Shown here piece after piece: positions 2,611 through 28,373 of a DNA stretch of 29,130 nucleotides. The notes below the pieces were generated by a model. The model saw only the letters and a list, made by a program, of their open reading frames with translations. It was not told the DNA's origin and searched no databases. A program made the position numbers and the translations under genes. The DNA is from a virus. The stretch covers positions 1-29,130 of the IMG/VR virus record IMGVR_UViG_3300028563_000064; one strand, written 5' to 3'. Position 1 is the stretch's first letter. Each line of letters opens with the position of its first letter.

Positions 2611-2985
2611 ATGAAAACTGCAATTTTGATTCTCGCCCTGCTCGCGTCCCCGGCTTTCGCTACCGACCTATCCCCGGCAACCATTTGCCCGTCGTATTGC
2701 ACGGGGATCACTACCAATGACCTCGCCGTCACGGTCGATTACCTTAACCTGAATTCGGGCGGAGACACCACGATTATCTCGATCAACGGCGTGACTTACC
2801 GGGGAACCTCTGCCTGGACTTCGCTGACCACGAACCTGCTGCACGAGGACGTATACCTGTTCTCCCCGGACGGAACTCCGTTGCACTTCGTAGGCGACAT
2901 GCGCGATACCCGAACCTGCGTAAAGTCCGGACGCGGACAGCACTGCACGGATCGCCTTTACTTCCTGGGTGGGACGGTAGAGTAA
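2611..2985 (+). CDS. Small secreted protein with Sec signal peptide and two Cys pairs
   Basis: A 124-residue protein starting with a textbook signal peptide (MKTAILILALLASPAFA, cleavage after residue 17, AFA/TD). The mature part is about 107 residues and appears beta-rich. It carries Cys at 26 and 30 (CPSYC) and at 103 and 112, compatible with two disulfides in the periplasm. The AAGGAGA ribosome binding site at 2600-2606 is well spaced from the ATG. The stop overlaps the next start (TAATG). I do not recognise the family. An early exported phage protein could alter the host envelope or block superinfection, but that is inference from location alone. Confidence 0.75.
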   Translation: MKTAILILALLASPAFATDLSPATICPSYCTGITTNDLAVTVDYLNLNSGGDTTIISINGVTYRGTSAWTSLTTNLLHEDVYLFSPDGTPLHFVGDMRDTRTCVKSGRGQHCTDRLYFLGGTVE

Positions 2986-14552: not shown

Positions 14553-16535
14553 TTAAACCCAGAACGGCATCCAGCCGACACCCAGACCCTGCACGGCCAC
14601 CCGAACCCAAGCAACGGGTTGAGCTCCTACCCCGGGGTATGTGGCCCCGCCGATGGAGGCAACACCACCTCCGGTGGCGGTATAGGGGAGATCGAGGTTT
14701 AGGGCAACGGGGTTGGCAGCAGTGGCGAAAAGGCGCATAGCTGTTTGCCCAATCCCCGCAGTAGCAAGATTCAGGGTAGGATTAAGAGCCCCGTTAGCGG
14801 AAGCTATGGTAAGAGAGGACCCGCCTACGGGGGGGGAGCCGATAAACATCCCGGAGGGAGCGATAAGGAGACGCGAGGAGACGGCCGTATTGTCATAGAC
14901 CTCCCAGATGCCTCCACCCGAGATACCTACTCCCGCGTAGTAAGACCGCCCGGAATTACCATCCAGGTAATTAGCATATGCTCCGTGACCAGCCGAACCT
15001 AGGAGCTGGAGCTGAGGACTGCCCGCCGCATCACCCTGTACGGATAGAGTGGTACCTGCGGTAGCTCCATTAATGAGAATATTCCCGGTTCCCCCGATGG
15101 TTATTCGCGCTGCATTGTTTGTTACGAGGCTAAACGGTATCGCCTGAGCGGGCCCCATCCCGAATTGTTCCCCCGTCGGGCCGTTGGAGAAGGGACTTGC
15201 TGTATACCCAACAGAGGTAAGAGTCAAGTTAACGAAGTGAGGTCCGTCGTTATAAAAATAGGCGCTTATGTCCCCGATGACTCCGCTGGTCCCAGGTCCC
15301 GCGTTCCAGGCCTGAGCACCGTTTAAATTAGCCTGGAAAAGACCTGCTTGGAATAGGCCACCTACGTTTAGGGTTGCACCGCTGGAGGACGCCGGGATGC
15401 TAAATTGCCCGGTACCCGACTGGTAGGTCATCGAACTACCGCCGAAGGCACCCGCATTGTTGTACTGTACCTGGGTATTAGCTCCTCCCGCCGTTGCGGC
15501 CGGGATAGACACTGCGTTGATGACGTTCGTGCCATCGCAGTACAGAATTGCCCTATTACCCTGAGCTACTAGAACGGGAGCACCACCGGCGCTGAATCCT
15601 AGCGTAAAGGCTCCCGAAGTTTCATTATCTACCCAGTACTGCTGAATCGACCCTGGAACGATCACGGTCACGTTACCCGCGAGGGCTCCGGTAAACCGGT
15701 AGGAGATCCGATTAAGTTGGGCTCCGGAGAGTACGTAGTTGCCGGGACCGACTCCGCCTAGGGAGATCTGCACGAAGTTAAAGGTAGAGACCACCGAGCG
15801 TCCGAACCCTAGGGTGACGAAGTTAATCCCGTCCGTAACGATGATGGCAGAATCAAAGGGCTGAAAGACTTGAGAGGCCGCTCCATTGATCGTCCCCGAG
15901 GGAGGCGTAACTGTTAGGGTACCGGTGCCCGAGTTCTGCACATAGGCGAACCACCCGGAACCTACGGTAGCCGGGTTAGGGAGAGTAAAGACACCACCGG
16001 AGCCTCCGGTCCATTCGATCAGGGAAGCGCGATCTTGCAGAGGGCCAGAACCTATGACGTAGTTCGCACTCTGCTGGTTGATATTAATATTTTCATTCAG
16101 AGTAGTAGAGATCGCCTTTAAGCCTGCCCCGGCAAGAGCCCCGGCATTCGCACTAGAGACCCCTGCACCGAATTGGAATACTCGCCACGTCCCGGCCTGC
16201 GTCGAATTATCGGCTAGGTAGATCTGCCAGACCTGCCCCGAGGGAACTACCATTAACGTGTTTCCGAGATTATCGGTAACCGTAAAGGAATTCGCCCCGA
16301 CGTTATTAAACAGAGCGCAATAGCCCGTCGAGGATTCGCGGGCATCGTCTAGCCGAAGGGAGAGGCCCACAGCGGTCGCTGTGATATCTAAGATCTCGGC
16401 TAGGACTGGTTGCCCACCTGCGGTAAGCTCGGTAGGCCACCCAAGCAGGATATTGGTCGAAACCGTCAGAGGGATATAGGTCGGCAACGCCGGGGCGATG
16501 TTGTTGCCCCCGAAGACTGTTTGAAAAGAACCCAT
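14553..16535 (-). CDS. Conventional tail fibre / receptor-binding protein (no signal peptide)
   Basis: A 660-residue beta-rich protein with a near-perfect AAAGGAGG ribosome binding site (16545-16552). The N-terminus (LPTYIPLTVSTNILLGWP) looks like a virion-anchoring domain. It contains three related beta modules at about 60-123, 181-240 and 285-350; the second (TLPNPATVGSGWF, NSGTGTLTVTPPSG, TINGAAS, TDGINF) also occurs in the exported protein at 23996-26992. The C-terminal half resembles a fibre tip with Gly/Asn/Ser-rich turns (GAHGAYANYLDGNSG..YYAGVG-like pattern). Only two Cys, in contrast with the signal-peptide fibres upstream. It lies between adaptor and hub genes, as expected for a tail fibre. 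Confidence 0.75.
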   Translation of the reverse strand: MGSFQTVFGGNNIAPALPTYIPLTVSTNILLGWPTELTAGGQPVLAEILDITATAVGLSLRLDDARESSTGYCALFNNVGANSFTVTDNLGNTLMVVPSGQVWQIYLADNSTQAGTWRVFQFGAGVSSANAGALAGAGLKAISTTLNENININQQSANYVIGSGPLQDRASLIEWTGGSGGVFTLPNPATVGSGWFAYVQNSGTGTLTVTPPSGTINGAASQVFQPFDSAIIVTDGINFVTLGFGRSVVSTFNFVQISLGGVGPGNYVLSGAQLNRISYRFTGALAGNVTVIVPGSIQQYWVDNETSGAFTLGFSAGGAPVLVAQGNRAILYCDGTNVINAVSIPAATAGGANTQVQYNNAGAFGGSSMTYQSGTGQFSIPASSSGATLNVGGLFQAGLFQANLNGAQAWNAGPGTSGVIGDISAYFYNDGPHFVNLTLTSVGYTASPFSNGPTGEQFGMGPAQAIPFSLVTNNAARITIGGTGNILINGATAGTTLSVQGDAAGSPQLQLLGSAGHGAYANYLDGNSGRSYYAGVGISGGGIWEVYDNTAVSSRLLIAPSGMFIGSPPVGGSSLTIASANGALNPTLNLATAGIGQTAMRLFATAANPVALNLDLPYTATGGGVASIGGATYPGVGAQPVAWVRVAVQGLGVGWMPFWV

Positions 16536-17276: not shown

Positions 17277-17482
17277 TACGCCGCCTTATCCTGCGCTTCC
17301 GGTGGTACGGGAGGCGGAGGAGTAGGCAGAAGCGATACACGATTCGCTAAGATCATCCGTTGCTTCTCCTGCTGGATCTGCTGAATGACCCCGAAGACGA
17401 AGTTTAACTGGTTGCCCTTAACGACCAGGGCCTCCGAGGTCAACAGCGCTTCGATACTGTTAAGAGTTTCAAGAGATAACAT
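17276..17482 (-). CDS. Small structural-module protein with Pro-rich tail
   Basis: A 68-residue protein with AAGGAG at 17488-17493 and an ATG 14 bases inside the upstream gene; its stop overlaps the adaptor start (TAATG). One amphipathic helix (LNSIEALLTSEALVVKGN, then VFGVIQQIQQEKQR) ends in a Pro-rich tail (PTPPPPVPPE). Short proteins of this kind sit beside adaptor genes in related phages. Function unknown. Confidence 0.6.
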   Translation of the reverse strand: MLSLETLNSIEALLTSEALVVKGNQLNFVFGVIQQIQQEKQRMILANRVSLLPTPPPPVPPEAQDKAA

Positions 17483-18053
17483 TTTTGCTCCTTAGACGTT
17501 GGGTGAGGAAAGGACCCCACTCTTTTAGTTTCTCAGGTGTGAAAAAGTCGCTATGTCCGGAAACCACCGGCATCCCTTTCGTGATATCGCAATGGAAGTT
17601 CTGGATAGCTGGGTCGTTACCGACGTAACCGGTATGGCCTAGCTCTCCCCACTCCTCATCTACGATATGAGCCTTCTCCGCAAACTTGGCAACCTCGGTT
17701 ATGCGATCCCCGCTGTTGCAGTAGACATCGATAAACTCGCACTTGTCGGGACGACGGATAGCGGACTGTAAAGCACCGTTAATGAACACGGCCCCCCTTA
17801 CCGGGGCTCCCTGCAACAGTAAGTGGTAAGCAATCGCGCAGCCGTTAGAATGGCCTACGAGAATATCACCGGGCTCGATGTATGGAAGGAGAACCCCCTC
17901 GACTGCTGGGTTTAGCAACCGAGTCTCCACGGCGAGTTCATACCCGTACTCTGGGTAACGGGCATCGAAACCCGCATCCATCAAGTAGACGAGCAACCCC
18001 CGAACGGGGCTGTCTGGTGAGGTATGAATGCCGTGGATAAGGTGGACTTTCAT
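17469..18053 (-). CDS. Alpha/beta hydrolase (serine esterase-like) next to lysis genes
   Basis: A 194-residue alpha/beta hydrolase: beta-1 with an HGIHT oxyanion-type turn (7-11), nucleophile elbow GHSNG (67-71, Ser69), acid in NSGDRI (Asp116) and His in SGHSDFF (His167). The catalytic triad is therefore complete. No signal peptide, so it is cytosolic until lysis or is virion-borne. It follows holin and endolysin candidates, a position reminiscent of LysB esterases in mycobacteriophages, but it lacks their length and GYSQG-type motif. It may cleave an ester in an envelope lipid, capsule or acyl-modified polymer. Enzyme class is secure, substrate unknown. Confidence 0.8.
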   Translation of the reverse strand: MKVHLIHGIHTSPDSPVRGLLVYLMDAGFDARYPEYGYELAVETRLLNPAVEGVLLPYIEPGDILVGHSNGCAIAYHLLLQGAPVRGAVFINGALQSAIRRPDKCEFIDVYCNSGDRITEVAKFAEKAHIVDEEWGELGHTGYVGNDPAIQNFHCDITKGMPVVSGHSDFFTPEKLKEWGPFLTQRLRSKNVIS

Positions 18054-18331: not shown

Positions 18332-18532
18332 CTACTTGTTTGGCGGCATTGCCGCATTGGGGAAGAAAATCGTGTGGGCGGCCGTCGCTATCGTGCCACC
18401 GAGGGTAACCCAGGCCATGGCCGTAGGGTTTAAACCGAGGGAGGCCGAATCAAGGGCCATCGCCCCGGAGAGGACGGTAAGCAAGGAAAGAACCTTGTCC
18501 CCGTTCTTAGCAAACCATTGATAAAGAGTCAT
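18332..18532 (-). CDS. Small two-helix membrane protein, holin candidate
   Basis: A 66-residue protein with a strong TGGAGG ribosome binding site. Two hydrophobic segments (about 13-26 and 37-57) are joined by a short turn, giving a hairpin topology. Length, charge distribution and position two genes behind the endolysin fit a holin. No family recognised. Confidence 0.6.
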   Translation of the reverse strand: MTLYQWFAKNGDKVLSLLTVLSGAMALDSASLGLNPTAMAWVTLGGTIATAAHTIFFPNAAMPPNK

Positions 18533-18560: not shown

Positions 18561-18773
18561 TTACGTGTGCTTCGCGATCATGTAAACGAGAGTAGCGGTA
18601 GAGACTAAAAGAGCGAGAATGGCAATCCAAGTATTACGTCCCTGGTCGGTGCGTTCCATCGCCACCTTTACTGTTTCTAAGGCCAGGATCGTGGCACGAT
18701 CAAGGGCCGCTAACCTCGTGTCTATATAGTCACGAAGAGATACCGTGTTGCTATGATCCTGGTCTTCGTTCAT
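18561..18773 (-). CDS. Coiled-coil protein with C-terminal membrane anchor, holin/lysis candidate
   Basis: A 70-residue protein coupled to the endolysin by ATGA. A polar N-terminus (LRDYIDTRLAALDRATILAL...) forms a helix or coiled coil to about residue 44, followed by one transmembrane helix (48-67) and a basic tail. This layout recurs in phage lysis cassettes as holin, antiholin or regulator. Two membrane proteins in the cassette suggest a holin/antiholin pair. Confidence 0.6.
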   Translation of the reverse strand: MNEDQDHSNTVSLRDYIDTRLAALDRATILALETVKVAMERTDQGRNTWIAILALLVSTATLVYMIAKHT

Positions 18774-19144
18774 TTCGTCGCTCCTTCATCCGGAGTTAAC
18801 GAGTAATGGTTATTGTCCTTCGAGTGAAAGTCGCCCCCCCAACAGAAGTCGGGCTGTTGCAACTTCCACCAGGCCCCTAGCTCCTTATGTCCCGTATCGT
18901 CCGTGATATAGGTCCCATCCGGGAGATAGAGATTTACGTCGATGGCGAGACCTTCGAGATGCAGAGAGTTCGTGATGCCCTTACCGTCCTTCGCGTTTAG
19001 GGCGGCTACCCGAGGATCACGCACCCACTCGCAGCGACCGGCCAGGTAGCCGAGATCGAAAGCCTTATCGATCAAACGCGGAACCCACTTAGCGAAGCGG
19101 GTCTGTTTCTCTCGTAGGGTCTCGTTTACAGTAGGCTCTGGCAC
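18770..19144 (-). CDS. Endolysin, M15-family L-Ala-D-Glu / D-Ala peptidase
   Basis: A 124-residue single-domain peptidase of the VanY/M15C type. Zinc ligands are visible in SLHLEGLAIDVNLY (S60, H62, D69) and NNHYSL (H113), with the family's WGGDF turn between. It should cleave peptidoglycan stem peptides during lysis. GTG start, overlapping the spanin-like gene by 19 bases, with only a weak GAGAG ahead, so it is probably translated by coupling. It lacks a signal peptide, consistent with release by a holin. Confidence 0.88.
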   Translation of the reverse strand: MPEPTVNETLREKQTRFAKWVPRLIDKAFDLGYLAGRCEWVRDPRVAALNAKDGKGITNSLHLEGLAIDVNLYLPDGTYITDDTGHKELGAWWKLQQPDFCWGGDFHSKDNNHYSLTPDEGATK

Positions 19145-19530
19145 TTCGGCTCTCTATAGAAGAAGCGTTGGATGGTAAAGTACTCGCGATTTAATTTATC
19201 GATGTCCTCCGTTAGCTCCTGCTTAAAGGCGGGATCTGCGGCCTTGCATCGATCCGCTACCCGGTTGCGTATGGCGGTCTCTAGGCTCTGCGCTGCGATT
19301 AGATCTACCCGGGTCTGGATGGCAGTAACCGAAGACACCTGGGCGAAACCAGGGTAGACCGAGGGCAGCCAACCGCAGGCCAAGGCGATATGCAATACGG
19401 ACCCGGAGATGATCAGAATGAGAGCCGCGAAGACCATCCAACGCCAGCGGTTCTGCTCGTACTCGTCGTTCGTGTTCCGAGGGGGCAGTATGGCTTTAAC
19501 GACCCCTAACCCGACATCTTCAAGACCCAT
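19126..19530 (-). CDS. Single-pass membrane protein, spanin-like
   Basis: The ATG at 19530 with AAGGAG immediately ahead (overlapping the upstream TAA) gives 134 residues; the longer open frame to 19671 only shadows the beta-helix gene. Residues 31-51 are a transmembrane helix (MVFAALILIISGSVLHIALAC), preceded by charged cytoplasmic residues (NRWRW) and followed by a mainly helical periplasmic part with Cys at 52, 95 and 130. Topology and location beside the endolysin fit an inner-membrane spanin. No separate outer-membrane lipoprotein partner is visible, so a holin or other envelope role is possible. Confidence 0.6.
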   Translation of the reverse strand: MGLEDVGLGVVKAILPPRNTNDEYEQNRWRWMVFAALILIISGSVLHIALACGWLPSVYPGFAQVSSVTAIQTRVDLIAAQSLETAIRNRVADRCKAADPAFKQELTEDIDKLNREYFTIQRFFYREPKCQSLL

Positions 19531-19540
19531 CTTCTTCTCC

Positions 19541-21748
19541 TTATGGTTGAACGAACGGCGTATTGGCATCCCAACGAGCTTTGGCGGGGAGCCCGCTTGT
19601 AGCGGTACACCCTGCTCCTGTGGGGGTCTGGAGCTTAGTGCCAGCAGCCGGGGTGACCCACGGCCAGGCATATCTGCAATTGATGCCTGAGGTACCGAAC
19701 TCGGGAGGGGTCGTAGAGGTATACAGGGAACTCGGGAATACCTGCGAGTACCCCGCTGGGGTATCTACGATGCTGTTCGTAAAGAAGTCATAGTTTCCAC
19801 TACGAAACAGGAGCTGGGGGTTATTAACCCCGTTAAGGTTGTTGTCGTTGCAGTAGATCCCACCGTTACCGCACTCGGAGCCGGTCCAGCCTAGAAGCCA
19901 GATCTCACCCTTATTGTTTGGGCACCCGGCAGTCCCGAAGCATCCCTGATAGACGTAACCGTTAGCAGCGGTAGTGACACCAGAGATACCTAACACATTA
20001 CCTACGTAGGCCATCTCGTAATCCCACATCATAGCCCCCGCCGCACGCAGGGGGCCTGGGGGGTACGGGTAAGCTTGGCCGGTGGCGTACCCGAGCCCGC
20101 TGTTGTCGTTGACGGTCCCGCTAGCAACTCCGAAGGTCACCGAGGAGCTAAGAGTCAGACTCGGGTCCGTAAAGGGAGGGCGCTGGGATAGAAACCAGTT
20201 ACGGAAGAAGGTGTGAGCAGTGACGTTGCCGTGAGTCTCATCGTCGTCGCCGTTATCCCCCTGATTACCCTCGAAGAGGATTCCGTGGCAGCCGACGTAG
20301 TGGGAACCGTTAACGCCCATATCGAGGAGGTAGTTACCGATGCCGCTGTTGGCCTGATACATCGTTTCACCGATGTAATTATAGGAGACCACGTTGCCCC
20401 CACCGCATGAGCGACCTACCATCCCCTTGCCGCCCAGTCTGATGATGCTGTTCGTAATCATCGACTCGGTAGTAGCGCCATCGATGGCTACGGGGTACTC
20501 GATCCCGTTGTTTTCGAGATCCGCCCCGTCGTGGAAGTAAACGGTATTAAGCTCGATCCGCAGAGAATTGCTGATGACTACGCCACCGCGCCATAGGAAG
20601 GTTTCCACGTTTTTAAGCCAGCACCCGTCGCAGTACTGGAAAACCACCGGGTCCTGGGTGGACCTCTCAATCGTAACATTCTCCAAACCCGCTCCGGAGA
20701 TAAATGGCACGGAGGTACCGGAGGCGTTGGTTGGCCAGTAGACTTGAGCGAAATGGGGGCTACCGGCTCTAAACGCTACCGTCACCGGCGAGTCGAAGGT
20801 GATAGTGCAAAGGGCTCCTGGGCACACCGAACTGATGGCGGAGATCTTCTTCACCTCGCTAGTTTCCCGATCATAGACGGCCCCGTAGGCTTGCCCATCC
20901 TCCACCGTGGTGCAACCGGGGCAGTAGACTATCCTCCCGATCATCGGACTGGTGTTTGCGGCGGCATAGTCGAGTGCGCCGAAAAGGTTAGCTGCAAGAC
21001 TCCCGCTGGTGTTCGCCGGGTTTGTCTGTGTAGTGGCTCCAGAGGCCTCGTCGATACGTACATCCATTCCTACGGCGAGATTAGCCACGCTATTAAGCTG
21101 GACGGTCGTTGCTCCCTGGAAAACGCTGAAAGCTAACTGCGCGCCGCACCCGGTGGCCGAAACTCCGTAGGGGCATCCTGCCCACCACAGGTTATTGTTC
21201 GGATTCGCTCCTATCCGCACGGTCGCATTGGTGCTAACCCCGGGGCATGGGGAAGTCCCGGGGGCAGTTGCTCCGCAAGCACCCGAAGCTACGTAGGTCT
21301 GTAACATCCCATTATAGACAAAGAATTCGGTTCCGCAGAAGGCAACGGGAGGTTCACCCCCACCGGCAACCGTACATGCGGCACCCCGAACGGTGATGCC
21401 CTTATTAATCAGAACGGTCTGAGTGTTATCGAGATAGAACTTACCCGAGGAAAGCTGAACGACCCCGTTAGCGGCGCAAGCGGCGATGGCAGCGGTAATC
21501 AGGGTGTAATCATCTCCTGCCGTAGGAGGCGTAAGGTGGCCGCTAGGGCTAACGGTAGCTCCGCATTGGGTTCTGGTGGTAGGGATGCCGCCGTAGAACA
21601 GCATCCCGGCTTTCGGCCAGTTAGCTGCCGAGAGATCATTAATAGCTGGAAGAAACGGAGCCGTCGAGGCAACTCCTCGCCCATGCCGTATGGCGGCCTG
21701 TGCGTTTGCTACCAGCAGAGAGAGCAGAAGGGCGATGATATATTTCAT
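19541..21748 (-). CDS. Secreted, Cys-rich right-handed beta-helix spike / pectate-lyase-like protein
   Basis: The ATG at 21748 overlaps the upstream TGA (ATGA) and begins a Sec signal peptide (MKYIIALLLSLLVANAQA, cut after residue 18); longer starts would be shadows. The 735-residue product shows pectate-lyase/tailspike hallmarks: AGDDYTLITAAIAACAANG, VVQLSSGKFYL and INKGITVRG, then repeated Asn/Gly/Val-rich rungs (GLENVTIERS, WLKNVETFLW, GGVVISNSLRIELNTVYFHD). It carries 22 Cys, many paired closely (CPGC, CDGC, CPGALC, CFGTAGC, CGNGGIYC), implying disulfides formed outside the cytoplasm. It may degrade or bind host polysaccharide. It could be a virion spike or an enzyme secreted by the infected cell. 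Confidence 0.75.
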   Translation of the reverse strand: MKYIIALLLSLLVANAQAAIRHGRGVASTAPFLPAINDLSAANWPKAGMLFYGGIPTTRTQCGATVSPSGHLTPPTAGDDYTLITAAIAACAANGVVQLSSGKFYLDNTQTVLINKGITVRGAACTVAGGGEPPVAFCGTEFFVYNGMLQTYVASGACGATAPGTSPCPGVSTNATVRIGANPNNNLWWAGCPYGVSATGCGAQLAFSVFQGATTVQLNSVANLAVGMDVRIDEASGATTQTNPANTSGSLAANLFGALDYAAANTSPMIGRIVYCPGCTTVEDGQAYGAVYDRETSEVKKISAISSVCPGALCTITFDSPVTVAFRAGSPHFAQVYWPTNASGTSVPFISGAGLENVTIERSTQDPVVFQYCDGCWLKNVETFLWRGGVVISNSLRIELNTVYFHDGADLENNGIEYPVAIDGATTESMITNSIIRLGGKGMVGRSCGGGNVVSYNYIGETMYQANSGIGNYLLDMGVNGSHYVGCHGILFEGNQGDNGDDDETHGNVTAHTFFRNWFLSQRPPFTDPSLTLSSSVTFGVASGTVNDNSGLGYATGQAYPYPPGPLRAAGAMMWDYEMAYVGNVLGISGVTTAANGYVYQGCFGTAGCPNNKGEIWLLGWTGSECGNGGIYCNDNNLNGVNNPQLLFRSGNYDFFTNSIVDTPAGYSQVFPSSLYTSTTPPEFGTSGINCRYAWPWVTPAAGTKLQTPTGAGCTATSGLPAKARWDANTPFVQP

Positions 21749-23241
21749 TGAAATGCGATAGCCGTTGCGAAAGCGGTGGACCCGTGTTGAGCAGCACCCA
21801 TAACGAAATTCCAGTTCTGGGTTACTGTGGTTGCAAAGTTTGCGTGACCGAATTGGTCTGCGTTGTCCATACGGTCCTGGTCGAAGGTCGCCCCACCCGT
21901 GATTGCATAGGAGACGCAATCGAAGACCGCCCCTGCGGGAGCCCCGGCAGCCATCGCCCCCTGAGAGGCCGTGCCCGACCCGGTTTGGTCGATGACGAGG
22001 CCCGGGGCCGCGATTGGGGTGATCGTCGGGAAATTAGAGATCACCGTACCACTGCCCGGAGCGGCCCCATTAAAACTCTGCGCATTTAAGAATGAGCTTG
22101 CTTGCGCTCCTACTACATCCCAAAGGTGGATGGAGAACTGGGGTTGTCCTGCTCCGGATAGGTTAACTGTTAGGGTAAGGTTATTCCCCGAGGTCGCATT
22201 CTGGTGATAGAAAACCTGCGAAGTACCCGCCGCTCCCGGGTTCGTGTAAGTCTGACTGCCAGAATCCACGACCGATGAGACTGCATTGATGTTATTACCT
22301 GCTGCCATAGAGGCGACAAGCAAATTCCCATCGGAAGGGAATAGAAGAACATTTGCCCCATTCTGGGGGTTGACCACACTGTAATGAAGTAGTCGTTTGA
22401 CACGGATGCCAGTTGGGGCCGCAGTGCCCGCGCTCGCGACTTTTAAAGCAACCGAGGCATCAACACAATTGGTCCCAGTAGACTGAGTGAACCCAAAACC
22501 AGGATTGATCGACCCGTTAGTAGTCTGCACGTCGAACGATGACGCACTCGGGATCGTGGCGATGTTGTTCGCGTGCATAAAGGCAGGGGATACCCCACCG
22601 GTCTTCGAAATCGCCGTGGCCTGGGTGCTGATCCCGGTGCCGACGGGGTCGTTACTGATCGCGTAATTCCAGATCAGGTGGCCGCCGTTCGCGTCGTTGT
22701 TCGTCGTCGGAGTGTAGGCCCCCGCAGTGATCGAGGAGCAGGCCGCATTCGCCGTGCTATGACTGCCGTCCGCAGGACTCGCCGTGGCGATGTTATTAAA
22801 CTCAGCAATCGCATAGTGGAACGGTTTGATGAACGTATCGAAGGTTACGGTCAACGTGTGCAGGCAAGATCCCGTGGCATTCGGTAACACGTAGATCTTA
22901 GTGTTCATATTCCCGACCGAGGCGGTCCCTCCCGTGACCGTAGCGGCAGGCCAAGTGTCTCCGCAGGAATCAGAGATGGCCCAAGTACGAGAAGCACTGT
23001 AGGGGTATGCAATCGATAGGAGGATCGGATTGCCCGTCCCCGTCGCATTAGGCAAGTTGATGACGAAGGCATTGCCGGTAATGCCGTTGTTATCGTTCAG
23101 GTCGGAACCGGTACCCTGAATAAAGGTTGGCACCGGGGGCCCACCGCCGCCACCGCCAAGGGACATGCCGACACCGTGATGAATACGAGCATCGGCAAAG
23201 GAGAGGAAAAGAGCGAGCGCTAAGGCTAGAACCTTCTTCAT
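21745..23241 (-). CDS. Secreted fibre-like protein with Gly linker (third of four)
   Basis: The ATG at 23241 overlaps the upstream TGA (ATGA). The signal peptide MKKVLALALALFLSFADA (cut after 18) is followed by RIHHGVGMS and a run of six Gly. The 498-residue product has two similar halves of beta-sandwich-like sequence (ILLSIAYPYSASRTW, CGDTWPAATV; later LLVASMAAGNNINAVSSVVD, QTYTNPGA) and five Cys in the mature part. The first half resembles the shorter protein encoded just upstream (23238-23999). I recognise the general fold class (jelly-roll/Ig-like phage adhesin) but no named family. Surface adhesion is inferred. Confidence 0.7.
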   Translation of the reverse strand: MKKVLALALALFLSFADARIHHGVGMSLGGGGGGPPVPTFIQGTGSDLNDNNGITGNAFVINLPNATGTGNPILLSIAYPYSASRTWAISDSCGDTWPAATVTGGTASVGNMNTKIYVLPNATGSCLHTLTVTFDTFIKPFHYAIAEFNNIATASPADGSHSTANAACSSITAGAYTPTTNNDANGGHLIWNYAISNDPVGTGISTQATAISKTGGVSPAFMHANNIATIPSASSFDVQTTNGSINPGFGFTQSTGTNCVDASVALKVASAGTAAPTGIRVKRLLHYSVVNPQNGANVLLFPSDGNLLVASMAAGNNINAVSSVVDSGSQTYTNPGAAGTSQVFYHQNATSGNNLTLTVNLSGAGQPQFSIHLWDVVGAQASSFLNAQSFNGAAPGSGTVISNFPTITPIAAPGLVIDQTGSGTASQGAMAAGAPAGAVFDCVSYAITGGATFDQDRMDNADQFGHANFATTVTQNWNFVMGAAQHGSTAFATAIAFQ

Positions 23242-23999
23242 GGCGAAACGTCCGCTCCCGATGCGATCTGATCGCATGACCCGGTAAAGGCAGCTGTTGC
23301 AGTTACGGTCGCCGCACCCGTAGTGTAGCTCGATACAACCGCGAGATTAGGACCGGTGGAGGCGTCCGAGTTTACCGTTGTCCCGCTAACCGCTCCCCAC
23401 GCGGAGCAGCTCTGTGCGAACCCCGTGAATACCTGATGCCCCGTACCGCTGGTTATCGGGCCTATCGAGATCGGGCTGGCGGTCGCGGTCAGGATACTAG
23501 TGAAACCCGCATTGGGGAACGCAGCACCGATGCTACCCTGATTAACCCCGGTAAACGAGATCGCGGATATGTGCGCTTCCCAAGACCCGGTCCAAGTACA
23601 GGTCAAGTTCTTAGTACCGCTGGTCGGAGCGATCAGGGCAAAAATGGTCGAGGCCCCGCTAAGACCTCCGTTCGTACCCGTGTTAGCACCGGTCAACTCG
23701 GTCATAGCCTGATTAGTACCCGCAGGGTCCCAATGGCAGGCTAACCCGGTTGGGGTAGTAGAGAGACTAAACCAGAGAACAGCGGCAAGGGCACGATTAG
23801 ACCCGCTGCCTACCGTCATGGAGGCGGTCATCGTCGTGGCCCCGTTAACAGAGACCACCGCCGCCGTCTGGGCGTCGAAAACTACGGAACCCCCGCCGCC
23901 ACCGCCGAACGACCCCAGGCCCGGCCCAGGTCCCTGCCCCTGGCCCGCTAGGGCAACCCCGTAGAGTAGGGCCAGTAGAAGAGTAAGTACCTTTCTCAT
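23238..23999 (-). CDS. Secreted small adhesin-like protein with Gly linker (second of four)
   Basis: The ATG at 23999 overlaps the upstream TGA (ATGA). The signal peptide MRKVLTLLLALLYGVALA (cut after 18) is followed by a Gly/Pro spacer (GQGQGPGPGLGSF) and six Gly. The ~210-residue domain (NRALAAVLWFSLSTTPTGLA, CHWDP..TNQAMTEL, NLTCTWTGSWEAHISAISFT) is a single beta-sandwich with four Cys, enough for two disulfides. It appears to be a paralogue of the first half of the next gene product. No enzymatic motif. Probably an adhesin or virion decoration; function inferred from context. Confidence 0.7.
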   Translation of the reverse strand: MRKVLTLLLALLYGVALAGQGQGPGPGLGSFGGGGGGSVVFDAQTAAVVSVNGATTMTASMTVGSGSNRALAAVLWFSLSTTPTGLACHWDPAGTNQAMTELTGANTGTNGGLSGASTIFALIAPTSGTKNLTCTWTGSWEAHISAISFTGVNQGSIGAAFPNAGFTSILTATASPISIGPITSGTGHQVFTGFAQSCSAWGAVSGTTVNSDASTGPNLAVVSSYTTGAATVTATAAFTGSCDQIASGADVSP

Positions 24000-26992
24000 C
24001 GCGGCACGTTCCAGTTCAAAGTGATCGCTCCGGGCGTGATACTGGAACTGGTGTTGTTACAGACCTTAAAGTTCACGTTATTGGCCGAGGGGTAGGCGAT
24101 GATGGTAAGCATCCCCGAAGCACTCGGGGTGTAGCCGGTCACTGCGGTCGGATCACCGTTAAAACCCCAGTTAACAACGTCGGTGGTCGCAACTCCAGTA
24201 GCCGAAGTCGTAACGGCGGTAGCACAAGTCCCGCTGGAGATCGCGCCCGTAGCGAGGGCCGAAGTACCGTTGGCAACGAGCTGACCGGCGCGGACCCCGT
24301 TTATCTGGGTGTTGGCAGCCGAGCCGCCGACGATGTTCGTGATCGTGCCTGAGTGGACATTCTCACCTAGGGTTATGGTCACGGCGGTTGTCGTCGTAGG
24401 CACTAAACCAAAGAGAGTAGTTCCGCTGCCCTCCTTAAAGATAATGGAACCGGGGAATCCGGTACCTGCCCCAGCCCCGGTGTTAAAGTTTAAAGTCCCA
24501 CCGTTAGCATTGGCCGCGGCCCCGGGCGACCCGGTGGTAATGCTGATGGTACCTGCGGTAGCGCTGGCAGTGGCGGCTCCTCCGCTACCTGCGCTGATCG
24601 AGACGTTACCTCCGTTAGCTACACCGACGCTGGTGGTAGAACCGCCTGCACCGGCCGTAATGACGACATTGCCACCGGAAGCAGGTCCGGTAACAGCACT
24701 AGCTGAACCTGCCCCTCCGAATAGGCTAAGAGCCCCGCCATTGCCCGAAGTGGTACCGATACCACTACCTGCAGAGACGGTAGTCGCACCACCGGTCCCG
24801 GAAGTACTGCCGCCCGCTCCTCCTGTGACGTTTAAGGCCTGACCATTGGCGGCGGCACTTCCCGAAGCGGCGGTAAGATTACCGGCCGTCGTAGCCCCTA
24901 GGATTAGAGTAGTGCTGCCATCGAGCCAGAGGAAGTCGGGGGTACCAGTAAGGAGATTCGAGCCATTGCCGTAACCTACCTGACCAGCGGTAAGAGACCC
25001 ACCGCAGTTACCTCCCGAGTCACTGATCTGCAAGGGACCGGTACCACCTACCGTTACGCAGTGACCTACGGTAAAGGAGCCGGTCGAACCAGGCAGTGTG
25101 CCAGCAGTACTCGGAATGGTGCTCCCGTTTACCGAGGTGACCCCGGGCAGCAAAGCCGAGTAGGCGGGATCTGCGGAGGCACCACCGGAAACGAGGGCCT
25201 GACCGGTCGAACCGGTGGCAATGCCCTCTAGGGTAGTGCTGGTCACCCAGATCGCTGTCTGATGAACGGTCGGAGTACCCGAGGCGTTAAGGGATCCACC
25301 TCCGGCGACCAGAGCCGTACAGGCTGATACTTGGTAGTTCGTGCCATCACTCGTGATGTCGCAGCCGCGATTCGAGGCAATAGACAGGGAACTGGCCCCG
25401 TTAATCGTGCTGGTCGTAGGCGTAATGGTAAGAGTACCCGCCCCGATGTTCTGGGCCGTAAAGCCGAACCCCGCTCCGAAGCCTGTGGTAGTAGCTACCG
25501 GGAGCGTCGCGGCAATTGCCCCCGCATTATTATGGGTTACGAGCTTGTTGCCATCCGTAGCCAAGTAAGTGTACGTGGTGCCGGTCTGCGCATTAATCAC
25601 GGCACTCGGGGCGAGAACCCCGGAGCTGATCCCGAGACCAGTGCCTACAGTAATAGGCGTGTTCTGCGCAGAGGAGTTAGAGGCCAGCAGGGCCGCGCTG
25701 GTCGGGTTAACCGCCCCATTGATCTGGTTTGCATTAACTACGCCAGTGCCGGTAGGACCGAGGCTCGCGCCCGTACCTACCAGGGCCGCCATACCGGTGT
25801 TCGTACCGGAGGTCAGGCCGCTAAAGGCGGTCGACCCACCCGAACCGCAGGCGCTACCGGTACCCGAAAAGAGCCCAGCTGAATTCGCTTGAATGCACTG
25901 GGTTAATCCCGTGATTCCCGAATCGGTAAAGCTAGAGGCAGTAGCCGCCCCGAGAATCGGGGTGATAAAGGTAGGGGTGTTGTTAAGGACTACCAGCCCA
26001 GTGCCGGTCTCGTTAGTGATAGCCGCTGCGAAGTTGGCGCTAGTCGGAGTGGCTAGGAAGGTCGCCACGCCGGTTGCTAAACCCGAGATACCCGTGCTGA
26101 CCGGCAGGTTAACCCCGTTGGTCAGATTCACCGCACTAGGAGTACCGAGGTTAGGCGTGATCAATACGGGGTTGTTGGAGAACACCACGAACCCGGTACC
26201 GGTCTCGTCGGTCAGAGCCGCCGCGAGGTTAGCGCTCGAAGGAGTCCCGAGGAAAGCCGCGACGTTAGTTCCAAGTCCCGTGATCCCCGCGAGAGGCGAG
26301 GAGGTCGCTACGATAGAACCCGCGCCCGAGGTATCGAGGATTGCACCGGTACCCACCGTCATGTGGGCGAGGACGTTGGTGCTGGTGGTCAGGGCACTAA
26401 ACGCCGAGGAGCTACCCGCACCGCAGCCGCCGCCCGAATCCGTAATGGAGGTCGAAGACGCCCACTGGACGCAATCTCCGGAGGTGATCACCCCGACCTG
26501 CACGGGGATACTTGCACCGGTCAGACTATTCGCCCCGGTACCTCCCGAAGACTGCGGAAGAGGAGTACCCGATAGGGTGATCGCGAAAATCCCAGAGGTC
26601 GTAATGGTCGAAGGGGAAACGGACAGGAAAGAGGGAACGGTTACCCCGATACTCGTAACCCCACCGCCTCCACCGCCGCCCGGGGCAGTACAACCCCCGG
26701 CACCGTTTACGAACAGGAGGGGATTGCCTCCGCACGGGAAGAGGTTGATGATATCGCTCGCACTCGAAGTACCGGTTAGGGCCAAGGAACTGGTAGGCCC
26801 AAACATGTTAAAGAGCTGGTGAGTGGATGTATTGTACTTATACGCGAAGATATACCACGGATCACCCGACCCGGTGGATACCGGACCCGTCGCGGTACAG
26901 GCTACCCCGGTAGCACAGTTCGCTGGGTTATACTGAGCGTATGCCCCTCCGCATCCGAGCAACAGCAGTAGAGCGAGTAGAATCTTTTTCAT
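23996..26992 (-). CDS. Very large secreted tail-fibre-like protein (first of four)
   Basis: A 998-residue modular protein. The N-terminus is a signal peptide cut after AYA (residue 19), although LLGC at 11-14 could alternatively serve as a lipobox. Seven Gly follow at 105-111. Residues 239-293 and 304-359 are a direct repeat of a module common in phage fibres (GLGTNVAAFLGTPSSANLAA). Residues 491-557 hold the same beta module as the conventional fibre gene. Residues ~703-850 are a Gly-rich solenoid with units like GGNVVITAGAGG. The C-terminal ~95 residues (ending NNVNFKVCNNTSSSITPGAI, then TLNW) form a probable cap domain that I recall from other phage fibres. AGAGG precedes the ATG. Receptor binding is inferred. 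Confidence 0.75.
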   Translation of the reverse strand: MKKILLALLLLLGCGGAYAQYNPANCATGVACTATGPVSTGSGDPWYIFAYKYNTSTHQLFNMFGPTSSLALTGTSSASDIINLFPCGGNPLLFVNGAGGCTAPGGGGGGGVTSIGVTVPSFLSVSPSTITTSGIFAITLSGTPLPQSSGGTGANSLTGASIPVQVGVITSGDCVQWASSTSITDSGGGCGAGSSSAFSALTTSTNVLAHMTVGTGAILDTSGAGSIVATSSPLAGITGLGTNVAAFLGTPSSANLAAALTDETGTGFVVFSNNPVLITPNLGTPSAVNLTNGVNLPVSTGISGLATGVATFLATPTSANFAAAITNETGTGLVVLNNTPTFITPILGAATASSFTDSGITGLTQCIQANSAGLFSGTGSACGSGGSTAFSGLTSGTNTGMAALVGTGASLGPTGTGVVNANQINGAVNPTSAALLASNSSAQNTPITVGTGLGISSGVLAPSAVINAQTGTTYTYLATDGNKLVTHNNAGAIAATLPVATTTGFGAGFGFTAQNIGAGTLTITPTTSTINGASSLSIASNRGCDITSDGTNYQVSACTALVAGGGSLNASGTPTVHQTAIWVTSTTLEGIATGSTGQALVSGGASADPAYSALLPGVTSVNGSTIPSTAGTLPGSTGSFTVGHCVTVGGTGPLQISDSGGNCGGSLTAGQVGYGNGSNLLTGTPDFLWLDGSTTLILGATTAGNLTAASGSAAANGQALNVTGGAGGSTSGTGGATTVSAGSGIGTTSGNGGALSLFGGAGSASAVTGPASGGNVVITAGAGGSTTSVGVANGGNVSISAGSGGAATASATAGTISITTGSPGAAANANGGTLNFNTGAGAGTGFPGSIIFKEGSGTTLFGLVPTTTTAVTITLGENVHSGTITNIVGGSAANTQINGVRAGQLVANGTSALATGAISSGTCATAVTTSATGVATTDVVNWGFNGDPTAVTGYTPSASGMLTIIAYPSANNVNFKVCNNTSSSITPGAITLNWNVPR
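24443..24886 (-). repeat. Gly-rich solenoid repeat in the fibre gene
   Basis: Six units of 17-21 codons follow the pattern GG-x-[VL]-x-[IF]-x-x-G (for example GGALSLFGG, GGNVVITAG, GGNVSISAG). The biased composition also leaves a long open frame on the opposite strand, which is an artefact. Confidence 0.75.
25916..26278 (-). repeat. Direct repeat of a fibre module, 65-codon period
   Basis: The two copies encode GLGTNVAAFLGTPSSANLAA...DETGTG and GLATGVATFLATPTSANFAA...NETGTG, followed by closely similar ITP-x-LG segments. This is an internal duplication of a fibre segment found in many phages. Confidence 0.85.
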
Positions 26993-27003: not shown

Positions 27004-27300
27004 CTATACATCGGGAGGGAAGGGGGCAGGAACCCCGTCGGTAAGGGGAACGTCAGGACGACAGAAGGGTAACGTGATGTTCTCGGTCTGCCGGGCCGGT
27101 AACCGGTACGGATCGAGAACGTCTAAATCAGCTTCACAAACCATTAAACCCGGAGAATTCGGATCCATGAAAAGCTCGTCGAGGAAAAACTTTCGAGAGC
27201 ACCGGGCACAAAGACCAATGCCAAAGGTAGAGCGGCCCCGGGGATCGAGGAAAATCGCTCCGTGACTTGCCTTGCTTCTACGGTGTCCCGAACGTCTCAT
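27004..27300 (-). CDS. Small Cys-rich, zinc-ribbon-like phage protein
   Basis: A 98-residue protein coupled to the adaptor-like gene by ATGA. The core GLCARCSRKFFLDEL...MVCEADLDVLDPYRLP has Cys at 31, 34 and 55 with Asp residues close by, and a further Cys at 80. From memory, phages with this adaptor-like gene often carry such a short protein (CxxC...VCxADxD) right behind it. It probably binds zinc and helps virion assembly, but its role is unknown. Basic N-terminus, no signal peptide. Confidence 0.7.
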   Translation of the reverse strand: MRRSGHRRSKASHGAIFLDPRGRSTFGIGLCARCSRKFFLDELFMDPNSPGLMVCEADLDVLDPYRLPARQTENITLPFCRPDVPLTDGVPAPFPPDV

Positions 27301-28373
27301 CTCGTGTAATTCCTGATCATAGGCCGGAGGTAAGTGGGACTTCCATCCGATTCACCGCCCCAGGCCTCGTTGATTAACCGGGCCGCTTCCGGCCCTAGCT
27401 CCTCTGCCACCCCCGCTTCGACCTCCGGGATCGTATACGCGAGTTGACGGGCAAGCTCGGTAATGACCGCAAGGAACCAGCGCTGAGGGATGGCTAACTG
27501 TTGGGTCATCGTCCCTACGTCCTCTACCTGCTGTTGGATGTAGCAAACGATCTGAGCGTAAGTAAACTGAAGCTGTGGAACCGGCCACAGGGTAATGACC
27601 GGTTGCATAAATTGCTTGTTATACCAGAACTCTACCGGGCGACCCGCGAAGTCCTTGTCTGGGAGGTTAGCATAGTCATCCCGGTTGACCTTAGCTAAGG
27701 GGATCTCGTTAGGCCTTGTTCCGCAGACGAACTCGGTGACGTTTAGGACCGTGGCAGACCCCGCCTGCAATCGGACGTAGGATACACCGGCTTCCGGGAT
27801 ACCCTCGATATCAACCCAAATCCAAGCTCCCGAGGAAACAGAGAGGGATTCGGACCAAAAGGTTTCCCAGGTAACTCCGTCATCGGATGTTTGGATAGAG
27901 AGAGCCCAAGTACCGGAGGCGTTAGGGAGAACCCCGAAGATCGTAGGCTGACTCGGAGTCGAGAACTTGACCTGGATGAATCCCCCTGGTACGACCTGGG
28001 TGCAGGCTGTCGCAAGGTCATTATCGAAGGCGTTGGCCGCTACTCCGCTAGACGCGCTCGGGATGGTCGAGTTCCCGTTCCTTGATATCTGGGTTAGGGT
28101 TCGCAGATTCGCGTTTAGAACATCGACGGTGCCATCGGGACACGGGACCGACTTAACCGAGTCATAGACAGGGAGGATGATCTTCTCGATGCAAAAGGTG
28201 GCCAGGCCCTTGCTAGAGAGAGTCGAGAGATACAGGTAGAGAAGGTCCTTGGCAATATCAATATATTCAGGATTGATTTGCTGAGGAGAGATTCTGCAAC
28301 GGCCAAAGGCCCGATCAATGACCTTACGGGTGTTAAATACCGTGGTGGCTACGGTACCCGATGTGCTTGCCAA
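27297..28373 (-). CDS. Head-tail adaptor-like protein with inserted discoidin-like domain
   Basis: A 358-residue protein with a TTG start preceded by CCGGAG; there is no ATG or GTG between it and the upstream in-frame stop. The N-terminal part (VIDRAFGRCRISPQQINPEY, LYLYLSTLS, CIEKIILPVYDSV) and C-terminal part (IPLAKVNRDDYANLPDKDFA, then GRPVEFWY, MTQQLAIPQRWFLAV, IPEV) fit a helical connector family in uncultured short-tailed phages. Between them, at about 100-215, lies an F5/8 type C (discoidin)-like domain: ANAFDNDLATACTQ, GGFIQVKF, WALSIQTSDDGVTWE, YVRLQAG. Such domains bind carbohydrates or other surface ligands, so this connector may display a binding domain on the virion. The fold is inferred from motifs. 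Confidence 0.7.
   Translation of the reverse strand: MASTSGTVATTVFNTRKVIDRAFGRCRISPQQINPEYIDIAKDLLYLYLSTLSSKGLATFCIEKIILPVYDSVKSVPCPDGTVDVLNANLRTLTQISRNGNSTIPSASSGVAANAFDNDLATACTQVVPGGFIQVKFSTPSQPTIFGVLPNASGTWALSIQTSDDGVTWETFWSESLSVSSGAWIWVDIEGIPEAGVSYVRLQAGSATVLNVTEFVCGTRPNEIPLAKVNRDDYANLPDKDFAGRPVEFWYNKQFMQPVITLWPVPQLQFTYAQIVCYIQQQVEDVGTMTQQLAIPQRWFLAVITELARQLAYTIPEVEAGVAEELGPEAARLINEAWGGESDGSPTYLRPMIRNYTR

Follow-up and report, generated by a model that had tools for sequence, protein, structure and literature searches.

Four consecutive signal peptide-bearing genes in the fibre slot of a P22-like podovirus suggest exported fibre-like and polysaccharide-active proteins

The window (the whole stretch of DNA analysed, 29,130 nt) is an entire virus record, whose minus strand carries the structural operon of a P22-like podovirus that is kin to the Caulobacter phages KcrB, RW and RLK. 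The operon runs from the tail adaptor through a small CxxC protein, a block of four genes (genes 1-4; Table 1) and the lysis genes to gp4-like, stabilisation-type and ejection-type proteins, and the block occupies the position where tail fibres normally lie. As stated in the first-pass annotation it directly precedes the lysis genes, with a TM protein, an M15 endolysin and small TM proteins coming next. The ATGA coupling that had been claimed for every junction holds for the three internal ones, but gene 1 has a GAGG ribosome site of its own and starts 11 bases past the gene before it (27004). No fibre is found in this slot in KcrB, so that the slot is dispensable; that of MW202545 contains two genes, annotated as a tail fibre and an endo-N-acetylneuraminidase, both lacking a signal peptide (SP).

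Table 1. Features of the fibre slot and its surroundings in the window
Feature	Positions	Strand	Remarks
Tail adaptor	27297-28373	-	46% identical to gp076c of Caulobacter phage KcrB; marks fibre slot
Small CxxC protein	27004-27300	-	70% to KcrB; directly upstream of block
Gene 1	23996-26992	-	998 aa, fibre-like; predicted SP 26936-26992 (AYA, then Q)
Gene 2	23238-23999	-	253 aa; predicted SP 23946-23999 (ALA, then G)
Gene 3	21745-23241	-	498 aa; predicted SP 23188-23241 (ADA, then R)
Gene 4	19541-21748	-	735 aa; predicted SP 21695-21748 (AQA, then A)
ATGA stop/start overlap, gene 1/gene 2	23996-23999	-	
ATGA stop/start overlap, gene 2/gene 3	23238-23241	-	
ATGA stop/start overlap, gene 3/gene 4	21745-21748	-	
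Single-TM protein (MGLEDV..., spanin/holin-like)	19126-19530	-	start ~11 nt after gene 4, AGGAGAAG site
M15 peptidase endolysin	18770-19144	-	Pfam PF13539
Two small TM proteins, holin-like	18561-18773 and 18332-18532	-	
Fifth SP gene, outside block	2611-2985	+	MKTAILILALLASPAFA, then TDL; 124 aa, 4 Cys

Several further genes of the window deserve mention in their own right. The tail adaptor contains a weak F5/8 type C-like domain that is partly absent from KcrB, and the fifth SP-bearing product weakly resembles a flocculation-associated protein in NCBIfam. Between the lysis and tail genes, 17469-18053 (-) encodes a product beginning MKVHLIHGIHTSPDSP with the look of an alpha/beta-hydrolase. 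The gene at 14553-16535 (-) specifies a conserved tail protein with the pattern FGG...LxLxxDxxLxWP, ranging in length from 487 to 927 aa among the relatives, which may be a constant receptor-binding protein.

The first-pass annotation had proposed Sec signal peptides for the products starting at 26992, 23999, 23241 and 21748, and the starts, the N-termini with K/R preceding 10-14 hydrophobic residues, and the A-x-A sites all prove to be as described. The predicted signal peptides are MKKILLALLLLLGCGGAYA in gene 1 (followed by QY), MRKVLTLLLALLYGVALA in gene 2 (GQ), MKKVLALALALFLSFADA in gene 3 (RI) and MKYIIALLLSLLVANAQA in gene 4 (AI), with the A-x-A ending at residue 19 in gene 1 and at residue 18 in the other three; all four display the positive n-region, 10-14-residue hydrophobic core and A-x-A cleavage site of Sec/SPI substrates. 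Using a simple n/h/c-region rule made for this analysis (threshold 5.5), the prediction suggested earlier gave scores of 7.6, 7.15, 7.5 and 7.17 for genes 1 to 4. For each gene, 5000 composition-preserving shuffles yielded no score of 7.0 or more, and when all the relatives' proteins were shuffled, just 25 of 27,780 attained 5.5. These are also the four most hydrophobic N-termini among the 31 ORFs of the window, and the mature parts contain zero transmembrane segments. Rather than consistently beginning after the hydrophobic segment, an outcome raised in the first-pass annotation, the homologues of gene 1, gene 3 (L180c, in L180) and gene 4 (in L185) retain the export signal; for gene 2 no homologue was found.

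Gene 1 displays a conserved CX5C at residues 26/32 and phage-fibre repeats. Its N-terminal module takes the form SP-AxA-Q-CX5C-GPxxTGTGD, and the AxAQ and CX5C elements are conserved in settings that span several types of phages: L014 from the same podovirus group, L174/L179, which have T7-like tail proteins (phrog_376), and L176/L177, where the module lies beside a tape measure protein. A further SP-bearing copy occurs in the tail sheath phage L180. The arrangement thus recurs in unrelated environmental viruses, and L180 has four consecutive SP genes, the third of which resembles gene 3. In both L014 and L177 an SP-bearing GH26-type enzyme comes directly after the gene 1 module, the two enzymes being 51% identical, a pairing as expected for a mobile cassette. 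The gene 1 repeats share 58-60% identity with ORFs of phages, and in one case the ORF lies opposite the strand of its annotated gene. The GenBank CDS 'ribonuclease E' of MW202701 (L005:7472-8743) is antisense to fibre-like repeats, and is probably a mis-annotated shadow ORF. The module was absent from 385 bacterial genomes, and hence no host could be assigned by prophage; a genome scan for the host returned two MAG contigs only, from Proteobacteria and Betaproteobacteria. The Bacteroidetes Q-rule (PMC5837995) was also considered for the host and dropped, as many relatives have Q after the terminal A but in the window gene 1 alone does.

Searches of genes 1-4 against PHROGs, Pfam and NCBIfam recovered no useful family match, with no Pfam cutoff reached, and PDB sequence searches gave no meaningful match. 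AlphaFold2 models of single-sequence mature chains had pLDDT values of 43 (gene 2) and 32 (gene 4), too weak for use. Genes 2 and 3 both have a Gly-rich linker after the SP, which in gene 2 probably precedes a beta-rich domain. Genes 3 and 4 showed no close relatives in viral contigs, and gene 4 none in plasmids. A single one of 398 sampled genomes encodes a bacterial homologue of gene 4 (L185:7223-9151; E=8e-51, nearly full length, 36% identity), with an N-terminus, MKATTSARPSLFPFYATVAIAAVGAALCAPSRVAA, that is of the export type as judged by eye and was not flagged by the rule-based scan. It is surrounded by genes of a polysaccharide cluster, coding for glycosyltransferases, a UDP-GlcNAc 2-epimerase, a dTDP-sugar isomerase and an amidotransferase, and it weakly matches the pectate-lyase-like PF12708 (E=1.9e-5, below the curated cutoff). 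This context and weak match point to gene 4 as a probable beta-helix polysaccharide-active protein. The two share the region SHxVGxH...EGNxGxNxDxDxTHGN and the hydrophobic export-type N-terminus, whereas the bacterial protein has 2 mature cysteines as against 22 in the phage product; 20 of these 22 are missing from it, and many lie closely spaced in phage-specific loops.

We drew 158 loci as relatives with profiles of the small CxxC protein and the tail adaptor, and split them into zones by landmarks. ORFs that encode an SP and are 120 aa or longer were absent from the core, head and tail/ejection zones (0/417), and made up 16 of 409 in the two delimited appendage slots, including the four of the window itself; another 12 lie in zones for which no limits could be drawn. 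Of the 57 relatives in which slot A is delimited, a count that includes the window, about 5 have an SP protein of 150 aa or more in it. Hence, such proteins are not general in the group, and the slot in most relatives is occupied by ordinary fibres lacking an SP. The usual fibres of the slot often begin with a motif resembling I-x-x-LP-x-A-x-x-x-L, at residues 5-14. In L051 (ALAQFPISKLPPATLPL), L008 (ASAQVPISGLPPATLPL) and L009 (ALGQIPITNLPQATVPL) the same motif is found at 21-23, right behind a signal peptide (that of L009, with a score of 5.47 just below the threshold, was counted by alignment). The SP proteins of L008 and L051 end in a C-terminal Peptidase_S74 domain, the fibre chaperone, and that of L008 is the sole long fibre-like ORF of its slot. 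The latter also has a C-terminal hydrophobic/TM stretch and then RKR, which would fit a membrane-tethered chaperone. When gene 4, gene 1 and six relatives' SP proteins were compared by tblastn with GenBank phages (50,697 records), no SP-bearing relative was seen among the matches listed, which came from two or three queries only and were each to parts of proteins; for L051, those seen among the best 20 of 282 partial matches fall in the S74 end.

Other SP-bearing families surfaced in the same survey. Small SP proteins with a fibronectin-III-like look (WTAPTTFTDGT...) are encoded at L166:2435-2827, L090:71-451, L044:5576-5968 and L091:6803-7198, the first with a lipobox (LTAC). An SP-bearing Cys-rich family comprises L108:18989-19531 and L153:16141-16662, which are 48% identical with 6 Cys at matching places, and had no match in GenBank phages. 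Genes resembling NAD-dependent sugar epimerases (L029:6131-7117, L039:2199-3197) lie close to the appendage region of relatives.

Cysteines tend to be paired in proteins whose folding takes place in the periplasm. The mature products of genes 1 to 4 contain 14, 4, 5 and 22 cysteines, respectively. An even number of mature cysteines is found in 27 of 28 Cys-bearing SP fibre-like proteins as against 80 of 185 non-SP fibre-like ones (Fisher p=2e-8; the count sets aside one Cys inside the L008 TM segment, and is otherwise 26/28, p=1.5e-6), and the density of cysteines per 100 aa is about fourfold higher (1.49 versus 0.41, p=1.6e-7), these p-values being indicative only, as they overstate independence given that the proteins share modules and the SP list was hand-assembled from several searches. 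Among motif-matched fibres the difference is nearly sevenfold (0.84 per 100 aa with an SP, n=3, whole proteins; 0.12 without, n=27). The apparent pairing of cysteines implies translocation of the SP proteins. Together, the even cysteine numbers, the conservation of the SP in divergent homologues and a bacterial counterpart of gene 4 that is itself predicted to be secreted lend good support to export, and we consider it very probable that the products of genes 1-4 leave the cytoplasm.

We suggest that the four genes form one cassette, with genes 1-3 as putative host-surface-binding appendage proteins and gene 4 as a putative polysaccharide-active beta-helix enzyme. The proteins would be synthesized late, pass through the Sec system of the host and be cleaved by signal peptidase I; they would then fold and form disulphide bonds in the periplasm, to be released once the endolysin and spanins open the envelope. 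Gene 4 would probably trim the host exopolysaccharide or O-polysaccharide, as a virion-borne or a free enzyme. The features that can be read directly from the sequence are the signal peptides, the cysteine pairing, the conservation of the export signal and the slot between the tail and lysis genes; what they suggest, and what we favor with moderate confidence, is a set of fibres and polysaccharide-active enzymes that are exported via Sec, stabilised by disulphides and released at lysis. The odd number of mature cysteines in gene 3 speaks against it, as do the small share of relatives with an SP protein in the slot, the dispensability of the slot in KcrB and the lack of an SP-bearing relative among the GenBank phage matches listed.

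Of the alternatives offered in the first-pass annotation, export itself is upheld and uncleaved anchors are disfavored; sequence does not separate secreted adhesins or depolymerases from virion proteins that mature in the periplasm and attach at lysis. That the proteins are solely free adhesins/depolymerases, acting on the surface of their own host or of its neighbors and never virion-bound, is possible though rather doubtful; they might then serve to clear the matrix, to prevent superinfection or to keep progeny away from debris. It would accord with the likeness of gene 4 to a predicted secreted protein of a bacterial polysaccharide cluster, with the SP-bearing GH26 enzyme of L014/L177 and with the dispensable slot of KcrB. 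Yet the genes lie inside structural operons in the fibre slot, the relatives retain the fibre N-terminal motif and the S74 chaperone behind the SP, and the L008 slot offers no other long fibre-like ORF. For the fibre-type members (gene 1 and the relatives with LPxAT and S74) the slot, the retained motif and the S74 domain seem to tip the balance slightly towards docking onto tails after lysis; the secreted-enzyme homologies favor free action. In P22 lysates, tailless particles are known to be joined by tailspikes.

The remaining explanations concern the N-termini themselves. Short hydrophobic stretches, along with the C-terminal TM stretch and RKR of L008, might be taken for uncleaved SAR-like anchors by which fibres are plugged into the virion or tethered to the inner membrane. 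We deem this improbable, since a predicted A-x-A site, which an uncleaved SAR/signal anchor should lack, is kept in all four, AxAQ is invariant in four aligned gene 1 homologues, the paired mature cysteines imply translocation, and the SP of the relatives stands ahead of an ordinary fibre motif. The invariant AxAQ also bears on gene 1 as a membrane-anchored lipoprotein (LLLLG-C lipobox): the LLLGC closing its hydrophobic core suits a relaxed lipobox, but this cysteine is not conserved among the aligned homologues, and we rejected the idea as very improbable. It is equally unlikely that translation really begins past the hydrophobic segment, as the SP-less slot fibres of most relatives might suggest, for the starts of genes 2-4 are set by ATGA coupling, and for genes 1, 3 and 4 even divergent homologues keep the SP.

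Phage fibres normally fold and assemble in the cytoplasm, and tailed phages are held to assemble entirely there. Set against this, we tentatively raise the possibility that some tailed phages, of several tail types and by way of a mobile cassette, might route virion appendages via the host periplasm, with Sec export, disulphide locking and docking when the compartments mix at lysis. No account of tail fibres exported by Sec turned up in the open-licence literature, and within the literature so searched periplasmic appendage assembly would be undescribed for tailed phages. If the fibres are exported, virion maturation would gain a second compartment, yielding oxidised, tougher fibres; alternatively, phages would have a class of secreted proteins with which to remodel the surface of the host at lysis or ahead of it. 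Either way, the combination of an AxA signal peptide, an even number of cysteines and a fibre slot could serve as a genomic rule for receptor-binding or polysaccharide-degrading proteins missed by family searches.

Among known systems, tail fibres and tailspikes with the S74 chaperone (PF13884) are comparable in their slot after the adaptor and, in the relatives L008/L051, in the LPxAT motif, repeats and S74 domain; here, in contrast, there is an N-terminal Sec SP with paired cysteines, and the window's four proteins are without S74 or a PHROG match. Phage capsule depolymerases such as the Klebsiella tailspikes likewise direct a beta-helix or glycoside hydrolase at surface polysaccharide, but usually lack a signal peptide and are assembled in the cytoplasm. 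Sec-type export as such is established for phage proteins, namely the fOg44 endolysin, the T4 antiholin RI, Spackle and spanins (PMC6116005, PMC8385771, PMC7677548, PMC6139136), which share with genes 1-4 a Sec-type signal for crossing the inner membrane, whereas they are lysis or exclusion proteins rather than fibres and do not form a multi-gene appendage block.
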